DNA of 44,765 bases from an uncultured Pelagibacteraceae bacterium. Its GTDB lineage: Bacteria; Pseudomonadota; Alphaproteobacteria; Pelagibacterales; Pelagibacteraceae. The position numbers were made by a program, and so were the translations under genes. Numbering within the stretch: the stretch's first letter is position 1; each line of letters opens with the position of its first letter. Shown here piece after piece: positions 1 through 11,700 of this stretch. The notes beneath the pieces are model-generated. The model ran no database searches, was not told where the DNA came from, and worked only from the letters and a program-made list of their open reading frames with translations. The stretch lies in the NCBI GenBank assembly GCA_902578525.1, contig CACHDJ010000008.1, positions 1 through 44,765 of the forward strand, read 5' to 3'.

Positions 1-467
1 GCTATATGGTAAGCTTTTTCTAAAACAAATCTAATTTCAGAAGCTTTTTTAATCTTATATGAATATTTTGTTACTGGTTTTGATATATTTACTATATTAG
101 TTTCCTGAAAACCAACTTGTCTGACCTTTTTCGTAGATTTATGACCGTCTTGCTGCTCATATGTATTTACTTGACCACAAATATGAAGAGAGGGAATAGA
201 GTCGAAAAATGAACAAGCAATACCCGTAATAAGGTTTGTTGCGCCTGGACCTGAAGTTGCCATTGTACAAGAAAAATTAGGACCCTGTCTCGAATAAGCA
301 TCTGCCATCATTGCAGCAGCTTGCTCATGAGCTACTGATGTGTATCTAATTTTTTTATTTCTTGAAAAGGCATCAACTAAAAATGAAATTGCTCCTCCTG
401 TAATTAAAAAAACATCTTTTACTTTTTTTTTTTGTAAAAATTTAAGAGTATAATCTGATAAGTTCAT
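1..467 (-). CDS. Thiamine-diphosphate-dependent enzyme, acetolactate synthase-like (C-terminal part missing)
   Basis: The first 155 residues are present; the gene runs off the left edge. The visible part is a ThDP-enzyme pyrimidine-binding domain: the catalytic Glu that activates the cofactor is Glu48 in AHEQAAAMMADAYSR, followed by the family signature TSGPGATNLITG at about residues 71-82. Its start codon shares one base with the stop of the RfbH/ColD-type gene upstream (TAATG), so it belongs to the sugar cassette rather than to branched-chain amino-acid synthesis. In known CDP-sugar clusters such an enzyme (YerE) adds a two-carbon unit from pyruvate to C4 of CDP-4-keto-3,6-dideoxyglucose, so I infer a YerE-like role. 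A plain acetolactate synthase (ilvB) is possible but less likely here. An 11-A run lies at codons 12-15. Confidence 0.8.
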   Translation of the reverse strand, partial: MNLSDYTLKFLQKKKVKDVFLITGGAISFLVDAFSRNKKIRYTSVAHEQAAAMMADAYSRQGPNFSCTMATSGPGATNLITGIACSFFDSIPSLHICGQVNTYEQQDGHKSTKKVRQVGFQETNIVNISKPVTKYSYKIKKASEIRFVLEKAYHI

Positions 468-1654
468 TATCCAATAAAGTTTAGAATTTTTTTATGTATA
501 TAGTTAATATCACTTTTTTTTAATCCTTGATGACATCCTATAAGAATTCCATACTTCATTATATAATCAGAGTTTTTAAAATTTTCTAATTTATTACGTT
601 TATTAATTAAACTAGAAAATGCAGGATGTCTCAGTATATTACCACTGAAAATAGGCCTTGTTTGTATGTTGTGTTTTTCTAAATATATTTGAAGATCTTT
701 TCTATTAAATTTTAAGTTTTTCTTCATTATTACTGGATAGGCTAAAAAATTAGTTTTTACATCCTTTTCAATTTTAGGAACTATAAAGTAATTATCTAAT
801 TTTTTAAAAAAATTATAATGCATCTTAAAGTTTATATTTCTAAGTTTTTTAAATTTATTGAATTTATTTAATTGAACAATTCCAAATGATGCTCCAACTT
901 CAGATGGTTCAAAATTATAACCAGCTTCAGAGAAAACAAATTTTCTATCATAATCAATACCTCTAAGCTTAATACCTAATCTTTTATGAATATTTTCAGA
1001 GTCTTTTATTAATGATGACATTCTTCCCCAGCTTCTAAGAATTTTTGCTTTGGTAAAATAATCTTTATTGTTTGTTAAAAGCATACCACCATTTCCAGCA
1101 CAACTTATAACGTGAGAACCATAAAAGCTTGTAATAGAAATATCACTATATATTCCACTAGACTTTCCTTTAATAGTAGCACCTAGTGTATCAGCGGAAT
1201 CCTCTAGGATTAACAAATTATACTTATTAGCTATTTTTCTTATTTTTTTCCAATTAGGTATATTTCCAATCAAGTTGGGGATTAATAAAGCTTTAGTTTT
1301 TTTTGTAATTCTATTTTCTATTGCACTAACATTTATTTGAAGAGTTTCTACCTCACAATCAATAAAAATAGGTGTTAAACCACTTAACATAATAGATGAG
1401 ATAGCAGTCCCAAAATTTAAACAAGGAACAATTATTTCATCATTTTTTTTTAAATTCATTACTTTTAAAGCCAAAAGTAGTGCTGAAGAACCAGAATTAA
1501 CCATTAAACCAAATTTTTTAGAAAAAAATTTTGCAATTTTATTTTCAAAAGCGTTAACTGATCTACCCATTTGAGTTGACACTTTTAAAGTTTTTAAAAC
1601 TGCACTAATCTCTTTCCTATCATAAACATTTTTACCGTAAGAAATCTTATTCAT
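467..1654 (-). CDS. rfbH: RfbH/ColD-type nucleotide-sugar 3-dehydratase (DegT/DnrJ/EryC1/StrS fold)
   Basis: 395 residues with the fold-type I PLP/PMP sugar-enzyme pattern: SGSSALLLAL (54-63), the cofactor-binding Asp152 in EDSADTLGAT, and the active-site strand TSFYGSHVISCAGNGG, where His181 occupies the place of the Schiff-base Lys of aminotransferases. A His there is the hallmark of 3-dehydratases (RfbH/DdhC and ColD), not aminotransferases. RfbH carries a [2Fe-2S] cluster on a CxC-x7-C stretch after the SWGR motif; here the stretch after SWGR (208-211) has no cysteine, and the C-terminal IGCHQGL resembles ColD. I infer removal of the C3 hydroxyl of CDP-4-keto-6-deoxyglucose without a partner reductase. 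It follows rfbG after 31 bases and overlaps the next gene by one base. Confidence 0.85.
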   Translation of the reverse strand: MNKISYGKNVYDRKEISAVLKTLKVSTQMGRSVNAFENKIAKFFSKKFGLMVNSGSSALLLALKVMNLKKNDEIIVPCLNFGTAISSIMLSGLTPIFIDCEVETLQINVSAIENRITKKTKALLIPNLIGNIPNWKKIRKIANKYNLLILEDSADTLGATIKGKSSGIYSDISITSFYGSHVISCAGNGGMLLTNNKDYFTKAKILRSWGRMSSLIKDSENIHKRLGIKLRGIDYDRKFVFSEAGYNFEPSEVGASFGIVQLNKFNKFKKLRNINFKMHYNFFKKLDNYFIVPKIEKDVKTNFLAYPVIMKKNLKFNRKDLQIYLEKHNIQTRPIFSGNILRHPAFSSLINKRNKLENFKNSDYIMKYGILIGCHQGLKKSDINYIHKKILNFIG

Positions 1655-1685
1655 AATTTATTTGGTTTTTTGTTTTATCTAGATT

Positions 1686-2759
1686 CTAATTATTATTTAT
1701 ATACATTAAAAATTGCTGTTCACATATATATTTTGCTGGAACTCCCTTTTTTATTTGGCTATTCCATTTTATTGTTTCATCTAACGCTTTATAGAGACTC
1801 CATTTGTTAGACCATTTAAGCTTTTTTTTAGCATTACTACTATTTAGCCTTAAAATTTTTGTTTCCTTAAATTTTTGATTTTGAATTATTCGAAAACTAA
1901 ATTTTTCCTTTTTTTGAATATATTTAACAATATTAATTACTCTCTTAAAATTGTTCTTACTTGGTCCTAAGTTCCAAGAATGAAAGTTTTTAGTTATATT
2001 ATTGTTAAATTGTTTTTTTGCTATTATTAAATATCCTATTAAAGGATCCAGCACATGTTGCCAAGGTCTTATATTTTTTGGGTTTCTTAAAGAAAGTTTT
2101 TTTTTATTGTTAATTGCTCTCATAATATCCGGAACAAGTCTATCTTTTGAAAAGTCACCTCCACCAATTACATTTCCTGCTCTTACTGTTGAAATCTTAT
2201 TTTTAAGAATTGAAGTTTTAAAAAATGATTTAATGTAGCTATCTGTGATTGTTTCAACTGCAACTTTTGAGGCACTATAAGGATCATACCCACCTAATTG
2301 ATCTAACTCACTATAAATTTTATTTTTTTTATCAATTTTATAAACTTTATCTGTTGTAATTATAAGTACTGATTTTACAGAGCGAATTGATCTTATACAT
2401 TCTAATAAGTTTGCAGTTCCTATTACATTAGTTTTTATTGTTTCTAAAGGGTGTTTATAAGAATCAATTACAAGAGGTTGAGCAGCTAGATGGAAAATTA
2501 TCTCTGGTTTTATTCTTTTAATATTAGTTTTTAATTTTTTAATATCCTTAATGTTTCCATAAATATTTGATGATAGTTCATTCTTAATTTTAGATTTAAT
2601 AAATAAATTATTTTTTTCAGGAGGTAAAGAATAACCAAAAACTTTTGAGCCAAGTAGATTAAGAATAATACTTAACCAAGTACCTTTAAATCCAGTATGA
2701 CCAGTAATAAATATCTTCTTTTTTTTCCAAAATTTTTTTAAATCATTTAAATTTTCCAT
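1686..2759 (-). CDS. rfbG: CDP-glucose 4,6-dehydratase
   Basis: 357-residue short-chain dehydrogenase/reductase of the extended type. The NAD-binding loop is GHTGFKGTWL (20-29), a wording typical of RfbG/DdhB rather than of the dTDP enzyme RmlB. The catalytic set is visible as TTDKVY (135-140) and the Y161-x3-K165 pair in YDPYSASK. It converts CDP-glucose to CDP-4-keto-6-deoxyglucose in the cytoplasm, the shared precursor of 3,6-dideoxyhexoses. Its start overlaps the end of rfbF by 13 bases, so the two are probably translated together; they encode consecutive steps. The protein is unusually Lys/Ile/Asn rich but full length. Confidence 0.93.
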   Translation of the reverse strand: MENLNDLKKFWKKKKIFITGHTGFKGTWLSIILNLLGSKVFGYSLPPEKNNLFIKSKIKNELSSNIYGNIKDIKKLKTNIKRIKPEIIFHLAAQPLVIDSYKHPLETIKTNVIGTANLLECIRSIRSVKSVLIITTDKVYKIDKKNKIYSELDQLGGYDPYSASKVAVETITDSYIKSFFKTSILKNKISTVRAGNVIGGGDFSKDRLVPDIMRAINNKKKLSLRNPKNIRPWQHVLDPLIGYLIIAKKQFNNNITKNFHSWNLGPSKNNFKRVINIVKYIQKKEKFSFRIIQNQKFKETKILRLNSSNAKKKLKWSNKWSLYKALDETIKWNSQIKKGVPAKYICEQQFLMYINNN

Positions 2760-3517
2760 GGCAATTTTTTTTTCGTATTAATTAATTTTTTAAAATCATT
2801 TTTATCTTTTAAAGTATCTAAACTTTTCCAAAATCCATTGTGTTTGAAAGCAAATAACTTTTTAGCTTTAAGAAAGTATGTTAGGGGTTCTCTTTCCCAG
2901 TAAGTTTTTAAATTTTTAATTTTTTTAATAGCTTTTTTTGATATAACAAAAAATCCTCCATTAATAAAAACATCAATTTTTTGATTGTTATTATCAAAAT
3001 ATTTGACCCTGTCTTTCTGTATTTTTAAAACACCATATTTTTGTTTTGGTTTGACAGCAGTCAAAGTTATTTCAGATTTTTTAAGGTAATGAAACTTTAT
3101 TAATTTATTTATTGGAACATTTGATAAGCCGTCGCCATATGTCATCATAATATCTTCATCTAAATTAAGTTTTTTGTATGCTTGTTTTATTCTTCCACCT
3201 GTTCCAGTATTCAGACCAGTATAAACTAAATTTCCTATAAAATTAATTTTTGAATCTTTATATTTAAATTTTATATAATCATTTTTTTTTTTTATAATTA
3301 TAATTTTTTTTTTATTTTCTTTTAAAAAATATTCAATAATTGTTTTTGCCTTATGGCCTAAACAAAAAACAAAATCTTTATGACCTTGTTCTACATAATT
3401 AGTTATCAAGTGCATCAATAAAGGTTTAGAACCAATTCTAATCATTGGTTTTGCCATTAATGTACCTTCATAATCTAATCTTGTACCTAATCCACCACAA
3501 AGAATAAAAGTTTTCAT
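2747..3517 (-). CDS. rfbF: Glucose-1-phosphate cytidylyltransferase
   Basis: 256 residues, the normal family length. The N-terminal nucleotide-binding loop CGGLGTRL is followed by the substrate Lys in AKPMIRIGSKPLLMHL; the metal-binding Asp is in MTYGDGLSNVPI; WKSLDTLKDK near the C-terminus matches the WxxMDTLRDK motif of RfbF/DdhA. It makes CDP-glucose from CTP and glucose-1-phosphate, committing sugar to the CDP-dideoxyhexose route. The start overlaps the rlmB stop in the form ATGA, so rfbF is probably coupled to rRNA-methylase translation. A 12-A run on the coding strand (3282-3293) encodes a Lys stretch in the middle of the gene. Confidence 0.94.
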   Translation of the reverse strand: MKTFILCGGLGTRLDYEGTLMAKPMIRIGSKPLLMHLITNYVEQGHKDFVFCLGHKAKTIIEYFLKENKKKIIIIKKKNDYIKFKYKDSKINFIGNLVYTGLNTGTGGRIKQAYKKLNLDEDIMMTYGDGLSNVPINKLIKFHYLKKSEITLTAVKPKQKYGVLKIQKDRVKYFDNNNQKIDVFINGGFFVISKKAIKKIKNLKTYWEREPLTYFLKAKKLFAFKHNGFWKSLDTLKDKNDFKKLINTKKKLPWKI

Positions 3518-4311: not shown

Positions 4312-4339
4312 TTGCAATTACACAAATAAAATATATAAA
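4312..4339 (+). promoter_or_regulatory. Probable sigma-70-type promoter of the tRNA-Tyr/tRNA-Gly/tuf unit
   Basis: A TTGCAA hexamer at 4312-4317 and TATAAA at 4334-4339 are 16 bases apart in the 130-base divergent spacer between rlmB and tRNA-Tyr. The bases just after the -10 are CGCGTG, a GC-rich patch in very AT-rich DNA. GC-rich discriminators are typical of stable-RNA promoters under stringent control; that role is inferred. The -35 lies inside ATTGCAAT, a palindrome that could also serve the divergent rlmB promoter. Confidence 0.5.
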
Positions 4340-4369
4340 ACGCGTGTTGTTTGAAGCTTTATTGAACAA

Positions 4370-4383
4370 GGGGACACTTCCCC
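4370..4383 (+). other. GC-rich hairpin in the tRNA-Tyr 5' leader
   Basis: GGGGA (4370-4374) and TCCCC (4379-4383) form a five-base-pair stem around the loop CACT, ending four bases before the mature tRNA 5' end. It would sit next to the RNase P cleavage site. The complementarity is visible; a function in processing is inferred. Confidence 0.4.
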
Positions 4384-4387
4384 AAAA

Positions 4388-4473
4388 GGAGGGGTTCCAG
4401 AGCGGTCAAATGGGGCGGGCTGTAAACCCGTTGACTTCGGTCTTCGAAAGTTCGAATCTTTCCCCCTCCACCA
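4388..4473 (+). tRNA. tRNA-Tyr (anticodon GTA)
   Basis: A class II tRNA of 86 bases with encoded CCA. Acceptor strands GGAGGGG (4388-4394) and CCCCTCC (4463-4469) pair fully; the T arm is GAAAG-TTCGAAT-CTTTC (4446-4462); the anticodon GTA is at 4422-4424; a long variable arm follows the anticodon arm, as expected for bacterial tRNA-Tyr. Order Tyr-Gly-tuf resembles the E. coli tyrU-glyT-tufB group without the two flanking threonine tRNAs. Confidence 0.97.
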
Positions 4474-4518
4474 CTCAATAAAATTTGAAACAATATGGAG
4501 TGATACTCTTGGGGTTGT

Positions 4519-4592
4519 GCGGGTGTAGTTCAATGGTAGAACGCTAGCCTTCCAAGCTGGATGTAAGGGTTCGATTCCCTTTACCCGCTCCA
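4519..4592 (+). tRNA. tRNA-Gly (anticodon TCC)
   Basis: 74 bases including an encoded CCA (4590-4592). Acceptor strands GCGGGTG (4519-4525) and TACCCGC (4582-4588) pair with one G-T wobble; the anticodon TCC is at 4551-4553 in the loop CTTCCAA; the T loop is TTCGATT. It lies 45 bases after tRNA-Tyr and 38 before tuf, so all three are probably in one transcript. Confidence 0.97.
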
Positions 4593-4630
4593 AGAAAAAA
4601 AAATTATAAAAAAAGTGAGGAATAAAAGTA

Positions 4631-5821
4631 ATGTCAAAAGAAAAATTTGTAAGAAATAAACCGCATTGTAACATTGGTACAATTGGTCATGTCGACCACG
4701 GTAAAACAACTTTAACTGCAGCTATCACTAAAGTTTTAGCTGAAACAGGTGGTGCAAAAGCTGTAGCCTATGATCAAATTGATAAAGCTCCTGAAGAAAA
4801 AGAAAGAGGCATAACAATTTCTACTGCACACGTTGAGTATGAAACTGAAAAAAGACATTACGCTCATGTTGATTGTCCAGGTCATGCTGACTATGTAAAA
4901 AATATGATTACAGGAGCTGCACAAATGGATGGTGCGATTTTAGTAGTAAATGCTGCTGACGGTCCTATGCCACAAACAAGAGAACATATTCTTTTAGCAA
5001 GACAAGTAGGTGTTCCTGCAATTTGTGTTTACTTAAATAAAGTAGATCAAGTAGATGATAAAGAAATGATAGATTTAGTTGAGGAGGAAATTAAAGAATT
5101 ATTAACTTCATATAAATTTCCAGGAGATAAAACTCCGATAGCCAAAGGTTCTGCACTAGCTGCTGTAGAGGGAAGAGATGATGAAATTGGAAAAAACTCG
5201 ATTTTAGAACTAATGAAAAATGTGGATGAGTTTATTCCTCAACCTGACAGACCAAAAGATAAAGATTTTTTGATGCCTGTAGAAGATGTTTTTTCAATTT
5301 CAGGAAGAGGTACAGTTGCTACAGGTAGAGTTGAGTCAGGTATGCTTAAAACAGGAGACGAACTTGAAATAGTTGGAATAAGAGAGACTAAAAAATCAGT
5401 TTGTACTGGTGTTGAAATGTTTAGAAAACTTTTAGACTCTGGTGAAGCTGGTGATAATGTTGGTGTACTTTTAAGAGGTGTTGAGAGAACTGATATTGAG
5501 AGGGGTCAAGTTCTTTGTAAACCAGGATCTGTTACGCCACATACTAAATTCGAAGCTCAAGCATACGTACTTAAAAAAGAAGAAGGTGGAAGACATACAC
5601 CTTTCTTTACTAAGTATAGACCGCAGTTTTATTTTAGAACAACAGATGTTACTGGAGAAGTCGAATTACCAGCAGGAACAGAAATGGTTATGCCAGGTGA
5701 TGATGCTAAATTTACAGTTAAGTTGATTACTCCAATCGCTATGTCGGAGAAATTAAATTTTGCAATTCGAGAAGGTGGAAGAACTGTTGGAGCTGGAGTA
5801 GTAACTAAAATTATAGAGTAA
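4631..5821 (+). CDS. tuf: Elongation factor Tu
   Basis: 396 residues, full length. Three-domain EF-Tu with G motifs GHVDHGKT (19-26), DCPGHADY (about 81-88) and NKVDQ (about 136-140), followed by the two beta-barrel domains. As a GTPase it brings aminoacyl-tRNA to the ribosomal A site. A Shine-Dalgarno-like GAGG at 4617-4620 sits ten bases before the ATG, one of few clear examples in this window and fitting very high expression. It is bracketed by tRNA-Gly and tRNA-Trp. There is no second tuf between fusA and rpsJ, where many proteobacteria have one, so this may be the only copy; the window alone cannot prove that. Confidence 0.99.
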
Positions 5822-8718: not shown

Positions 8719-11700
8719 ATGCAAATATCTTTTACTGAAAAAAAGAATATTAGAAAAAGTTTTGGTAAACTTAAAGAAAGTTTATCGATACCTAACCTTA
8801 TTGAAGTTCAAAAAAATTCTTATAATGAACTAACTGATTTTGTTGCTGATGCAGAAATAATAAAAGGTTTTGATAGAGTTTTTAAGAGTATTTTTCCAAT
8901 AGAAGATTTAAATGATAAAGCTACACTTGAGTATGTTTCATATAGATTAGAAAAACCAAAATTTGATGTAGAGGAGTGTATTGCAAGAGGTTTAACTTAT
9001 TCTTCTGCGTTGAAATGTACTTTAAGACTAGTTGTTTATGAAATAAATCAAGAGAACAATACTAAGGATATTTTATCAGCTAAAGAACAAGAGGTTTATA
9101 TGGGAGAGGTTCCAATGATGACAAATAGTGGAACTTTTATCACTAATGGAGTTCAAAGAGTTGTTGTAAATCAAATGCATAGAAGTCCAGGTGTATTTTT
9201 TGATCATGATAAAGGAAAAACCCATGCAAGCGGTAAATTATTATTTAACTGTAGAGTTATTCCAAATAGAGGTTCATGGTTAGACTTTGAATATGATGTC
9301 AAAGATCTTTTATATTTTAAAATCGATAGAAAGAAAAAAATCTTAGCTACAACTTTATTACTAGCTTTAGGGTATACAAAATCTGAAATTGTAAATGAGT
9401 TTTACGATAAAGAACAATATATATTTGATCCTAAAACAAAAAAATGGAAAACAAAATTTAATCCAGAAAATTATAAAGCAAAAAATTTTTCTGAAGAAGT
9501 TATAGATGCTAAAACTGAAAAAGTAGTAATTAAATTAGGTGAAAAAATTAACTTCCTCAATGCAAAAAAACTTTCAAATGATGGATTAAAAGATATTTTA
9601 GTCTCTCGAGAATCTTTGTATGGTAAATTTTTACATAAGGATGTTAAAGTTAACGAAGAAGAAACAGGTACTTTCAAGATAGGTACAGAATTAAATGATA
9701 CTATTATACAACAAATTTTAGATGCAAATATCCATTCTTTAGAAATATCGGTAACTAATTCGATTAACAAAGGCCCTTATTTATTAACCACAATACTAAA
9801 TGATAAAAATATTTCAAAAGATGATGCAATAACCGAAATTTATAAAATGTTAAGACCTGGTGAGCCACCGACAATTGAAATTGCTAATCAAATATTTAAT
9901 AATTTATTTTTTAGTTCTGATAGGTACGACCTCTCTGATGTTGGAAGAGTTAAGATGAATTCAAGGTTAAATCTTGAGTGTTCTGATAAAATTACAATCC
10001 TAAGAAATGATGATATTATTTCTATTATTCATAAAATGTTGGATTTGAGAGATGGCAAGGATGAAGTTGATGATATAGATCACTTAGGAAATAGAAGAGT
10101 AAGATCAGTGGGTGAATTAGTTGAAAATCAAGCAAGAATTGGTGTTTATCGAATGGAGAGAGCAATTAAAGAAAAAATGACTACTCTTGATGTTGAGTCT
10201 GCAATGCCACAAGATTTAATTAACGCAAAACCTTTAACAGTTTCTCTAAAAGATTTTTTTGCTAGTTCACAATTATCTCAATTTATGGATCAAACAAATC
10301 CATTGTCAGAAATTACTCACAAAAGAAGAGTGTCGGCATTAGGACCTGGAGGTTTAACTAGAGAAAGAGCAGGTTTTGAAGTTCGTGATGTTCATCCAAC
10401 ACATTATGGAAGAATTTGTCCAATAGAAACTCCCGAAGGACCTAATATTGGATTAATAAATAGTTTATCAACTTATGCAAAAATTAATAAATATGGTTTT
10501 ATTGAAAGTCCATATAAAAGGGTAAAAGATGGTGTTGTACAGGATAAAGTTGAATATTTATCAGCAATGGAAGAAACAAAGTTTACAATTGCTCAAGCCA
10601 ACACAAAAATAGATAACAACGGTAAGATTATTGAGGAGTTAGTTTCTTGCAGACAGAATTTAAACTTTTTATTATCTAAACCAGAAACAATAGATTATAT
10701 TGACGTTTCTCCTAAACAACTTGTTTCAGTAGCCGCTTCGTTAATACCTTTCTTAGAAAATGATGATGCTAACAGAGCGCTTATGGGGTCAAATATGATG
10801 AGACAAGCTGTTCCACTTTTAAAACCGGAGTCTCCTTTAGTTGGAACTGGAATAGAAAGTGATGTGGCATTAGATTCAGGAGTAACAATCGTTGCAAAAA
10901 GAGATGGAGTTGTTGATAAAATTGATGGTAAAAGAGTAGTAGTTAAAGTTACTGAAGAAACTGATTTTACAAAATCAAGTGTAGATATTTATAATTTACA
11001 AAAATTTAAAAGATCAAATCAAAATACATGTATTAACCAAAGACCTTTGGTAAGAGTTGGTGATAAAGTTAAAACTGGTGATATAATTGCAGATGGTCCA
11101 TCAACTAGATTGGGAGAATTAGCTTTAGGTAAAAACGTTGCTGTAGCATTTATGCCATGGCAAGGGTATAATTTTGAAGACTCAATTCTCATTTCAGAAA
11201 GATGTGTTACAGATGACGTATTCACATCTGTCCATATTGTAGAGCATGAAATCATGGCTAGAGACACAAAATTAGGTGAAGAAGAAATAACTAGAGATAT
11301 TCCAAATGTGAATGAAGATGCATTAAAAAATCTAGATGAGTCAGGAATAGTTTACATAGGCGCAGAAGTTAATGCAGGAGATATATTAGTAGGCAAAGTT
11401 ACTCCAAAGGGCGATTCTGCTTCAGGACCTGAGGAGAAACTATTAAGATCTATTTTTGGCGAAAAAGCAATTGATGTAACAGATACTTCTTTAAGAATGT
11501 CTAGAGGTAGCAGTGGTACTGTAGTAGATGTGAAGGTATTTAATAGACATGGAATTGAAAAAGATGAAAGATCAATAACAATAGAACGTGCTGAAATAGA
11601 TCAGGTTCAACAAGATAAAATAGTTGAAGAAGAAATTTTAGAGAGAAGTATAAAACAAAGAGCAGCTCAAATTTTGTCAGGAGCATTACTAACTAAAAAA

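Follow-up and report, generated by a model that had tools for sequence, protein, structure and literature searches.

A putative sugar 3-dehydratase lineage without iron-sulfur cluster cysteines in CDP-sugar cassettes of SAR11 bacteria

Sugar 3-dehydratases share the first half of their reaction, in which a PMP Schiff base is formed, a histidine removes a proton and the 3-hydroxyl group is lost, as outlined in the available sections of a review of these enzymes (PMC8987622). The same sections describe two ways of finishing the reaction, either with electrons delivered via a [2Fe-2S] cluster, as for E1 (with E3) and SpnQ, or by hydrolysis and renewal of PMP from glutamate, as for ColD. In these sections, the enzymes with a cluster are those for CDP-sugars (E1) and TDP-sugars (SpnQ), and the enzyme without one is that for GDP-sugars (ColD). 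CDP-4-keto-3,6-dideoxyglucose is the acceptor of the ThDP enzymes YerE and ErwE, the latter of which prefers a hydroxylated 2-oxo-acid donor, and according to the accessible part of the same review of ThDP enzymes, the 13 split-gene transketolases for which ketone use is predicted are all from Streptomycetes (PMC12247030). JanthE (PDB 8rph) is a YerE-like enzyme according to the available excerpt of its report (PMC12188165).

The window analysed here is a stretch of 44,765 nucleotides, corresponding to bases 1-44765 of contig 8 of an uncultured Pelagibacteraceae genome (1.0 Mb, 34 contigs, 81.6% complete). Near its start, rfbF, rfbG, a predicted 3-dehydratase gene and then, downstream, a TPP/ThDP gene are arranged in this order and in one direction, with the following coordinates:

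467..1654, minus strand: predicted 3-dehydratase gene (DegT fold, 395 aa), from the ORF list and alignment; His181 at the lysine position, without cluster cysteines
1112..1114, minus strand: His181 codon, computed from the ORF coordinates (1654-3x180)
1686..2759, minus strand: rfbG, CDP-glucose 4,6-dehydratase, 357 aa (TIGR02622, 412.3 bits against a cut-off of 278.45)
2747..3517, minus strand: rfbF, glucose-1-phosphate cytidylyltransferase, 256 aa (best family TIGR02623, 224.7 bits, below the cut-off of 300.25)
3..467, minus strand: ThDP enzyme (acetolactate-synthase/YerE-like), N-terminal 155 aa only, the gene being truncated by the contig start

We propose, with a probability of roughly 0.6, that the protein encoded at 467-1654 is a PMP-dependent 3-dehydratase that acts on CDP-4-keto-6-deoxyglucose without an iron-sulfur cluster, finishes its reaction by hydrolysis, has its cofactor renewed by glutamate and serves the formation of a 4-C-branched sugar. 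The plus strand across this interval holds many stop codons and the coding ORF is that of the minus strand; its protein matches Pfam PF01041 at 249 bits. The initial annotation had placed the gene in a CDP-sugar cluster, which agrees with an rfbG above its family cut-off and an rfbF whose best family is the expected one, at a score below the cut-off. The closest relatives of the dehydratase, at 69-79% identity, come from uncultured Pelagibacteraceae records, and therefore the host is taken to be SAR11. The GC content is 22.7-25.0% in the cassette genes (467-3517) and 29.0-32.1% in 4631-44765. A 118-aa minus-strand ORF at 4318-4674 overlaps plus-strand tRNA-Tyr (4388-4473) and tRNA-Gly (4519-4592) genes and is probably not a gene. 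The same genome also codes for a ColD-like His protein (L002, contig 4) and a family member of the Lys aminotransferase type (L003, contig 13).

The ATG of the ThDP gene overlaps the dehydratase stop codon by one base. The ThDP fragment is 81% identical to the N-terminus of its counterpart in another cassette (L048:9188-10972), and the remainder of the gene was not found among the contigs of its own genome. Because a second homologue is present in this genome (contig 9, 34% identical to the L048 partner), the cassette enzyme is, as judged from sequence, distinct from the housekeeping acetolactate synthase.

Alignment to E1 places His181, which lies within the motif SFYGSH, at E1 His220, as expected from the earlier claim that a histidine replaces the Schiff-base lysine. 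In the structure of the E1 H220K mutant (3bb8), the mutant lysine aligns onto the same residue. The earlier statement that cysteines are missing after SWGR likewise agrees with the alignments: E1 Cys193, Cys251, Cys253 and Cys261 correspond to Ala154, Ser213, Leu215 and Ile222 in the better one, and another, in which the loop is shifted by two residues, is also free of cysteine at the ligand positions. The cysteines of the window protein are residues 78, 100, 185 and 374, none of which is in the SWGR loop. The pattern goes beyond chance: across the clade to which this protein belongs, the histidine is present in 38/38 proteins and the CxC-x7-C motif in 0/38 (a count that omits the window copy, L001), and the motif is found in 30/30 RfbH-type rows versus 0/35 ColD-like rows. 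Groups were initially labelled by signature residues before any tree was built, and these counts alone are thus partly circular; a tree constructed without the signature columns gives the same groups. We also considered a substitute cluster site hidden elsewhere in the protein, and rejected it. C374 is the only near-universal cysteine of the clade (37/38), and a four-Cys site within one chain is impossible in 14/38 members because these have three cysteines or fewer.

Four E1 positions (194, 217, 220 and 345), which we take from E1 mutagenesis work to separate E1 from Lys aminotransferases, provide a further comparison. The window protein carries E1-type residues at three of them (Asp155, Tyr178 and His181). 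The fourth is Leu304, a residue specific to the clade at this pocket position, unlike the Phe of E1 and ColD and unlike the aminotransferases. The loop retains the RfbH-like landmarks WGR...RF/RL...YDxKF, which are absent from ColD. A ColD-like C-terminus, as described in the initial annotation, is only half right: in IGCHQGL, HQ is common to ColD VGNHQ, but IG..GL is shared with E1 IGIYPGL. An AlphaFold model (16 sequences; mean pLDDT 80.6, pTM 0.85) is uninformative on the active site because its loops fall below pLDDT 50 (residues 178-180, 182-188 and 211-220). A Foldseek search with this model ranks E1 first (6.6e-31), with ColD (seventh, 5.9e-29) and perosamine synthase close behind it, and this closeness prevents the search from deciding between E1 and ColD.

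For phylogenetic analysis, ORFs of at least 330 aa were taken from 153 BLAST-positive ORFs, giving an alignment of 111 rows including E1, ColD and the window protein, and trees were built on hand-picked subsets of 84 rows and of 74 rows, the latter with more Lys aminotransferases and with plasmid and phage rows. In the 84-row tree, the window clade (33 rows) has support of 100/100, RfbH is separate (13 rows, 100/100), as are most ColD-like rows (29 rows, 99/91), and the window clade pairs weakly with ColD (81/64). In the 74-row tree it pairs with RfbH and phage proteins (99/89). When the signature and loop columns are removed from the 74-row alignment, the window clade and RfbH both retain 100/100 and ColD 94/90, all His proteins group together (100/100), and the window clade joins RfbH and the phages (98/81). 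By an AU test, a grouping of the window clade with ColD is not rejected (p 0.247). The sister of the clade thus appears to vary with sampling, sparse sampling placing it weakly with ColD and broad sampling with RfbH. The window protein lies outside both the RfbH clade and the ColD-like clade in all three trees and, on this phylogenetic evidence, belongs to a third His-type lineage beside Fe-S RfbH and ColD.

These trees bear on two of the earlier claims. ColD chemistry had been thought to be adopted onto a CDP-sugar; however, the protein is outside the ColD-like clade, and the broader trees place it with RfbH. A need for iron was said to have been removed, whereas these two trees of the three suggest the opposite direction: on them, the simplest history starts from an enzyme without iron, and RfbH probably gained its Fe-S route later. 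The trees also speak against a decaying or non-functional RfbH from which the cluster has been lost. The RfbH model, with its cut-off of 423 bits, scores the protein at 291, as such decay might give, but the separate 100/100 clades and the intact SAR11 orthologues (69-79% identical, active-site motif invariant in 16/16) led us to reject this explanation, which we regard as very improbable.

Members of the clade are also carried on plasmids of Sinorhizobium meliloti, Ensifer adhaerens, Roseibium, Leisingera, Palleronia and Rhodococcus. Among 297 relatives searched, four have a protein above the RfbH cut-off; one of these belongs to the genus of the window (G955), and its protein has the Fe-S motif. 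In another genome of the same order (G137), an RfbH-like gene is present as two ORFs that are 58% and 56% identical to E1 (L192). All four cluster cysteines are found in proteins of Synechococcus phage S-H68, of a seawater virus contig and of an uncultured huge phage (L171:6899-8203, L172:4854-6149 and L173:4905-6206), in which the loop has a longer spacing. These 3-dehydratase-like phage proteins are sister to RfbH in the 74-row tree (98/95) and when signature columns are removed (98/90). Searches of viral contigs matched 4 loci over 38-65 residues only. Iron-poor ocean water had been offered as the driver of an iron-free enzyme. This explanation is weak and we do not retain it, given that the clade is also present in the soil bacteria Sinorhizobium and Ensifer and that the Fe-S type occurs in one SAR11 genome as well as in two phages that come from the sea or infect a marine host.

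The gene neighbourhoods were counted for distinct proteins, using the longest locus of each and CDP genes within 6.5 kb, with near-identical proteins merged and with failures of the motif pattern left out (e.g. L209 and the Embleya protein of L168). CDP-glucose genes are nearby for 23/55 clade proteins versus 26/34 Fe-S proteins. Of the 23 clade CDP loci, 12 have a ThDP enzyme as well (5 acetolactate-synthase-like, 7 split transketolase), as do 13 of the 26 Fe-S CDP loci (10 acetolactate-synthase-like, 3 split transketolase). For the window and loci L040-L055, this enzyme is downstream in 12/17 (the window and 11/16). The clade therefore occupies the slot of RfbH in CDP-glucose cassettes and has the same types of ThDP partner, which argues for CDP-4-keto-3,6-dideoxyglucose as a product that feeds 4-C-branched sugars. 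The partner in L041 has 8rph as its sole PDB match at E<=1e-60, and 8rph is the second-best PDB match of the partner in L048.

An aminotransferase that functions despite its histidine, yielding CDP-4-amino-4,6-dideoxyglucose, would agree with the label 'DegT/DnrJ/EryC1/StrS family aminotransferase' given to clade members in public records, and SpnQ does transaminate when its reductase is left out (PMC8987622, available sections). However, E1 and ColD show no transamination under the SpnQ conditions (same sections), and the Schiff-base lysine is missing from 38/38 clade proteins. Furthermore, the ThDP step requires a C4 ketone, which transamination would consume, and so a 3-dehydratase fits these cassettes and an aminotransferase does not. 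We consequently rejected the latter as improbable.

Several additional arrangements were observed in the cassettes. Split transketolase genes follow the 3-dehydratase gene in L042 (9197-10829), L040, L043, L044, L045, L051, L053 and L055, all of them CDP cassettes, and are beside Fe-S RfbH in L100, L114 and L214. It is possible that they provide a glycolaldehyde-transferring route to 4-C-branched sugars. In L041, an HpcH/HpaI aldolase gene (9188-9874) lies between the dehydratase gene and the YerE/JanthE-like ThDP gene, and its product could make a hydroxylated 2-oxo-acid donor of the kind preferred by ErwE. L045, on a contig titled Verrucomicrobia bacterium TMED56, encodes a dehydratase with 72% identity together with a split transketolase, a case of transfer or of misbinning. 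A putative class I SAM methyltransferase replaces the ThDP enzyme after the dehydratase in Roseibium (L038:9395-10639), Palleronia (L169:8216-9472) and Ensifer (L170:8245-9474), with 58-60% identity to the Roseibium protein. A sister subclade with the motif SFYASHxxxGAGxGG is found beside rmlA and rmlB, often with rmlC (L134, L135, L136, L138, L139, L140, L197, L198, L200 and L203).

By the neighbourhood count, rml genes adjoin 10/55 clade proteins. Among the rml loci scanned, rmlB is above its family cut-off in L134, L138 and L139 and rmlC in L134, and rmlA is slightly under the cut-off in the two loci scanned for it. This association suggests that the subclade consists of Cys-free dTDP-sugar 3-dehydratases. 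Neither CDP nor dTDP genes were found near 22/55 clade proteins, a number that includes L166 and L169, where record annotation has rfbF/rfbG that our ORF calling missed. Along with Leu304, these 22 proteins count against our preferred reading.

The enzyme might instead act on a 4-keto sugar by some other PLP/PMP chemistry, such as epimerisation or a dehydration that brings no net 3-deoxygenation, with the ThDP enzyme using a different ketone. The clade-specific Leu304, the rmlA/B/C neighbours in dTDP cassettes and the putative methyltransferase beside the gene in Roseibium, Leisingera and Palleronia are all compatible with such a reaction. It is nevertheless unlikely, as the CDP cassette and the ThDP partners equal those of Fe-S RfbH.

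For the 3-dehydratase that we propose, the following steps are envisaged. RfbF would make CDP-glucose and RfbG would convert it to CDP-4-keto-6-deoxyglucose, as their families predict. PMP would condense with the 4-keto group of this sugar, His181 would remove the C4' proton of PMP and the 3-hydroxyl group would depart, as in E1 and ColD. The resulting 3,4-ene intermediate would be hydrolysed in the manner of ColD to give CDP-4-keto-3,6-dideoxyglucose, ammonia and PLP, and transamination from glutamate would regenerate PMP. A ColD-type finish is the simplest choice because the cluster ligands are missing. The downstream ThDP enzyme would then add an acyl unit at C4, yielding a yersiniose-type 4-C-branched sugar for the cell surface. 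The sequence, the missing cysteines, the clade and the cassette are observed; the hydrolytic finish and the use of glutamate, as well as the substrate, the product and the branched end product, are inferred.

The need for a reductase provides another point of comparison. In the genome of the window, whose completeness of 81.6% could let a reductase escape detection, no rfbI-like gene was matched at E<=1e-15 by a profile of five rfbI-like proteins, and no match to the NAD_binding_1 domain was found; two Fer2 proteins are present. Full rfbI-like matches above 300 bits occur in 8/22 RfbH genomes and 0/20 clade genomes, and any match at E<=1e-15 in 18/22 and 3/20, leaving 4/22 RfbH genomes with none. 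Because the SAR11 genomes are small and incomplete, this comparison and its Fisher values (0.007, 0.004 and 3e-5) are confounded, and we place no reliance on the latter. We had entertained the missing rfbI as strong evidence and dropped it, because most of the sampled RfbH loci also have no rfbI nearby (it is near just 5/34 Fe-S proteins, several of their loci being 3-4 kb and too short to show it). Its absence therefore gives weak support to a reductase-free reading. Of the iron- and reductase-free 3-deoxy route put forward in the initial annotation, the histidine, the missing ligands, the CDP-glucose cassette and the lack of a detected rfbI in this genome stand, and the route itself is a probable reading of them.

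A reductive finish might still be retained if a flavin enzyme or a ferredoxin passed electrons directly to the PMP intermediate of a protein that has no cluster of its own. The RfbH-like loop landmarks, the grouping of the clade with RfbH in two of three trees (the third differs) and the two Fer2 proteins are in keeping with this alternative, as is the ability of SpnQ to work with ferredoxin or flavodoxin systems (PMC8987622, available sections). However, SpnQ and E1 route electrons via their own cluster, whose ligands are missing here, and the genome search returned neither an NAD_binding_1 domain nor an rfbI-like reductase. We thus consider this alternative to have a low probability, and favour the hydrolytic 3-dehydratase.

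If the hydrolytic reading is correct, a cluster-free enzyme acting on CDP- and dTDP-sugars would uncouple the nucleotide from the mechanism and would open a way to CDP-4-keto-3,6-dideoxyglucose through one protein whose only requirements are PLP and glutamate. The 'aminotransferase' label in public records would be corrected, and the split transketolases in CDP cassettes would be a sign of branched-chain sugars on the surface of SAR11 cells. There is a real chance that the clade is a third mechanistic lineage of 3-dehydratases. The odds appear about even for the wider proposal, in which this third lineage works without cluster and reductase on CDP-sugars, and on dTDP-sugars in its sister subclade, supplies YerE-like enzymes and split transketolases for the assembly of 4-C-branched surface sugars in SAR11, and has an iron-free state that is older on two of three trees. 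No description of a Cys-free CDP-sugar 3-dehydratase was found in the open-licence PMC literature, a scope that leaves subscription journals mostly outside.

Among the known systems, those of YerE, ErwE and JanthE resemble the window in having a ThDP carboligase partner beside CDP-3,6-dideoxysugar genes. They differ in that 7 of the 12 ThDP-bearing clade CDP loci have a split transketolase instead, and in that the ThDP gene of the window covers just the N-terminal 155 aa and encodes an enzyme whose substrate we can only predict. SpnQ, from the spinosyn pathway, is a 3-dehydratase of the same fold, and its TDP-sugar has the nucleotide of the dTDP-cassette sister subclade; unlike the window protein, whose ligand loss is judged against E1, it has a [2Fe-2S] cluster (PMC8987622, available sections), and the window cassette is of the CDP type. 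ColD (PDB 2gms) shares the active-site histidine and the absence of a cluster, and its hydrolytic finish is the one expected here. However, the ColD cassette is for GDP-mannose (gmd) and that of the window for a CDP-sugar (rfbG directly upstream), Asp155 and Leu304 stand against Glu and Phe in ColD, the loop after the WGR region is unlike and the window protein falls outside the clade of ColD-like proteins. By sequence, E1 and ColD are the nearest solved proteins that are not aminotransferases, and E1 is the best PDB match (208 bits versus 168 bits for ColD). E1/DdhC/RfbH (NF011936; PDB 3bcx) differs in its cluster cysteines and its separate clade, and perhaps also in rfbI, which was not found in the genome of the window, and the window protein scores 291.4 bits against NF011936, under the curated cut-off of 423. 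E1 nonetheless has in common with the window protein the DegT fold, the active-site histidine, the CDP-glucose cassette and the ThDP partners.
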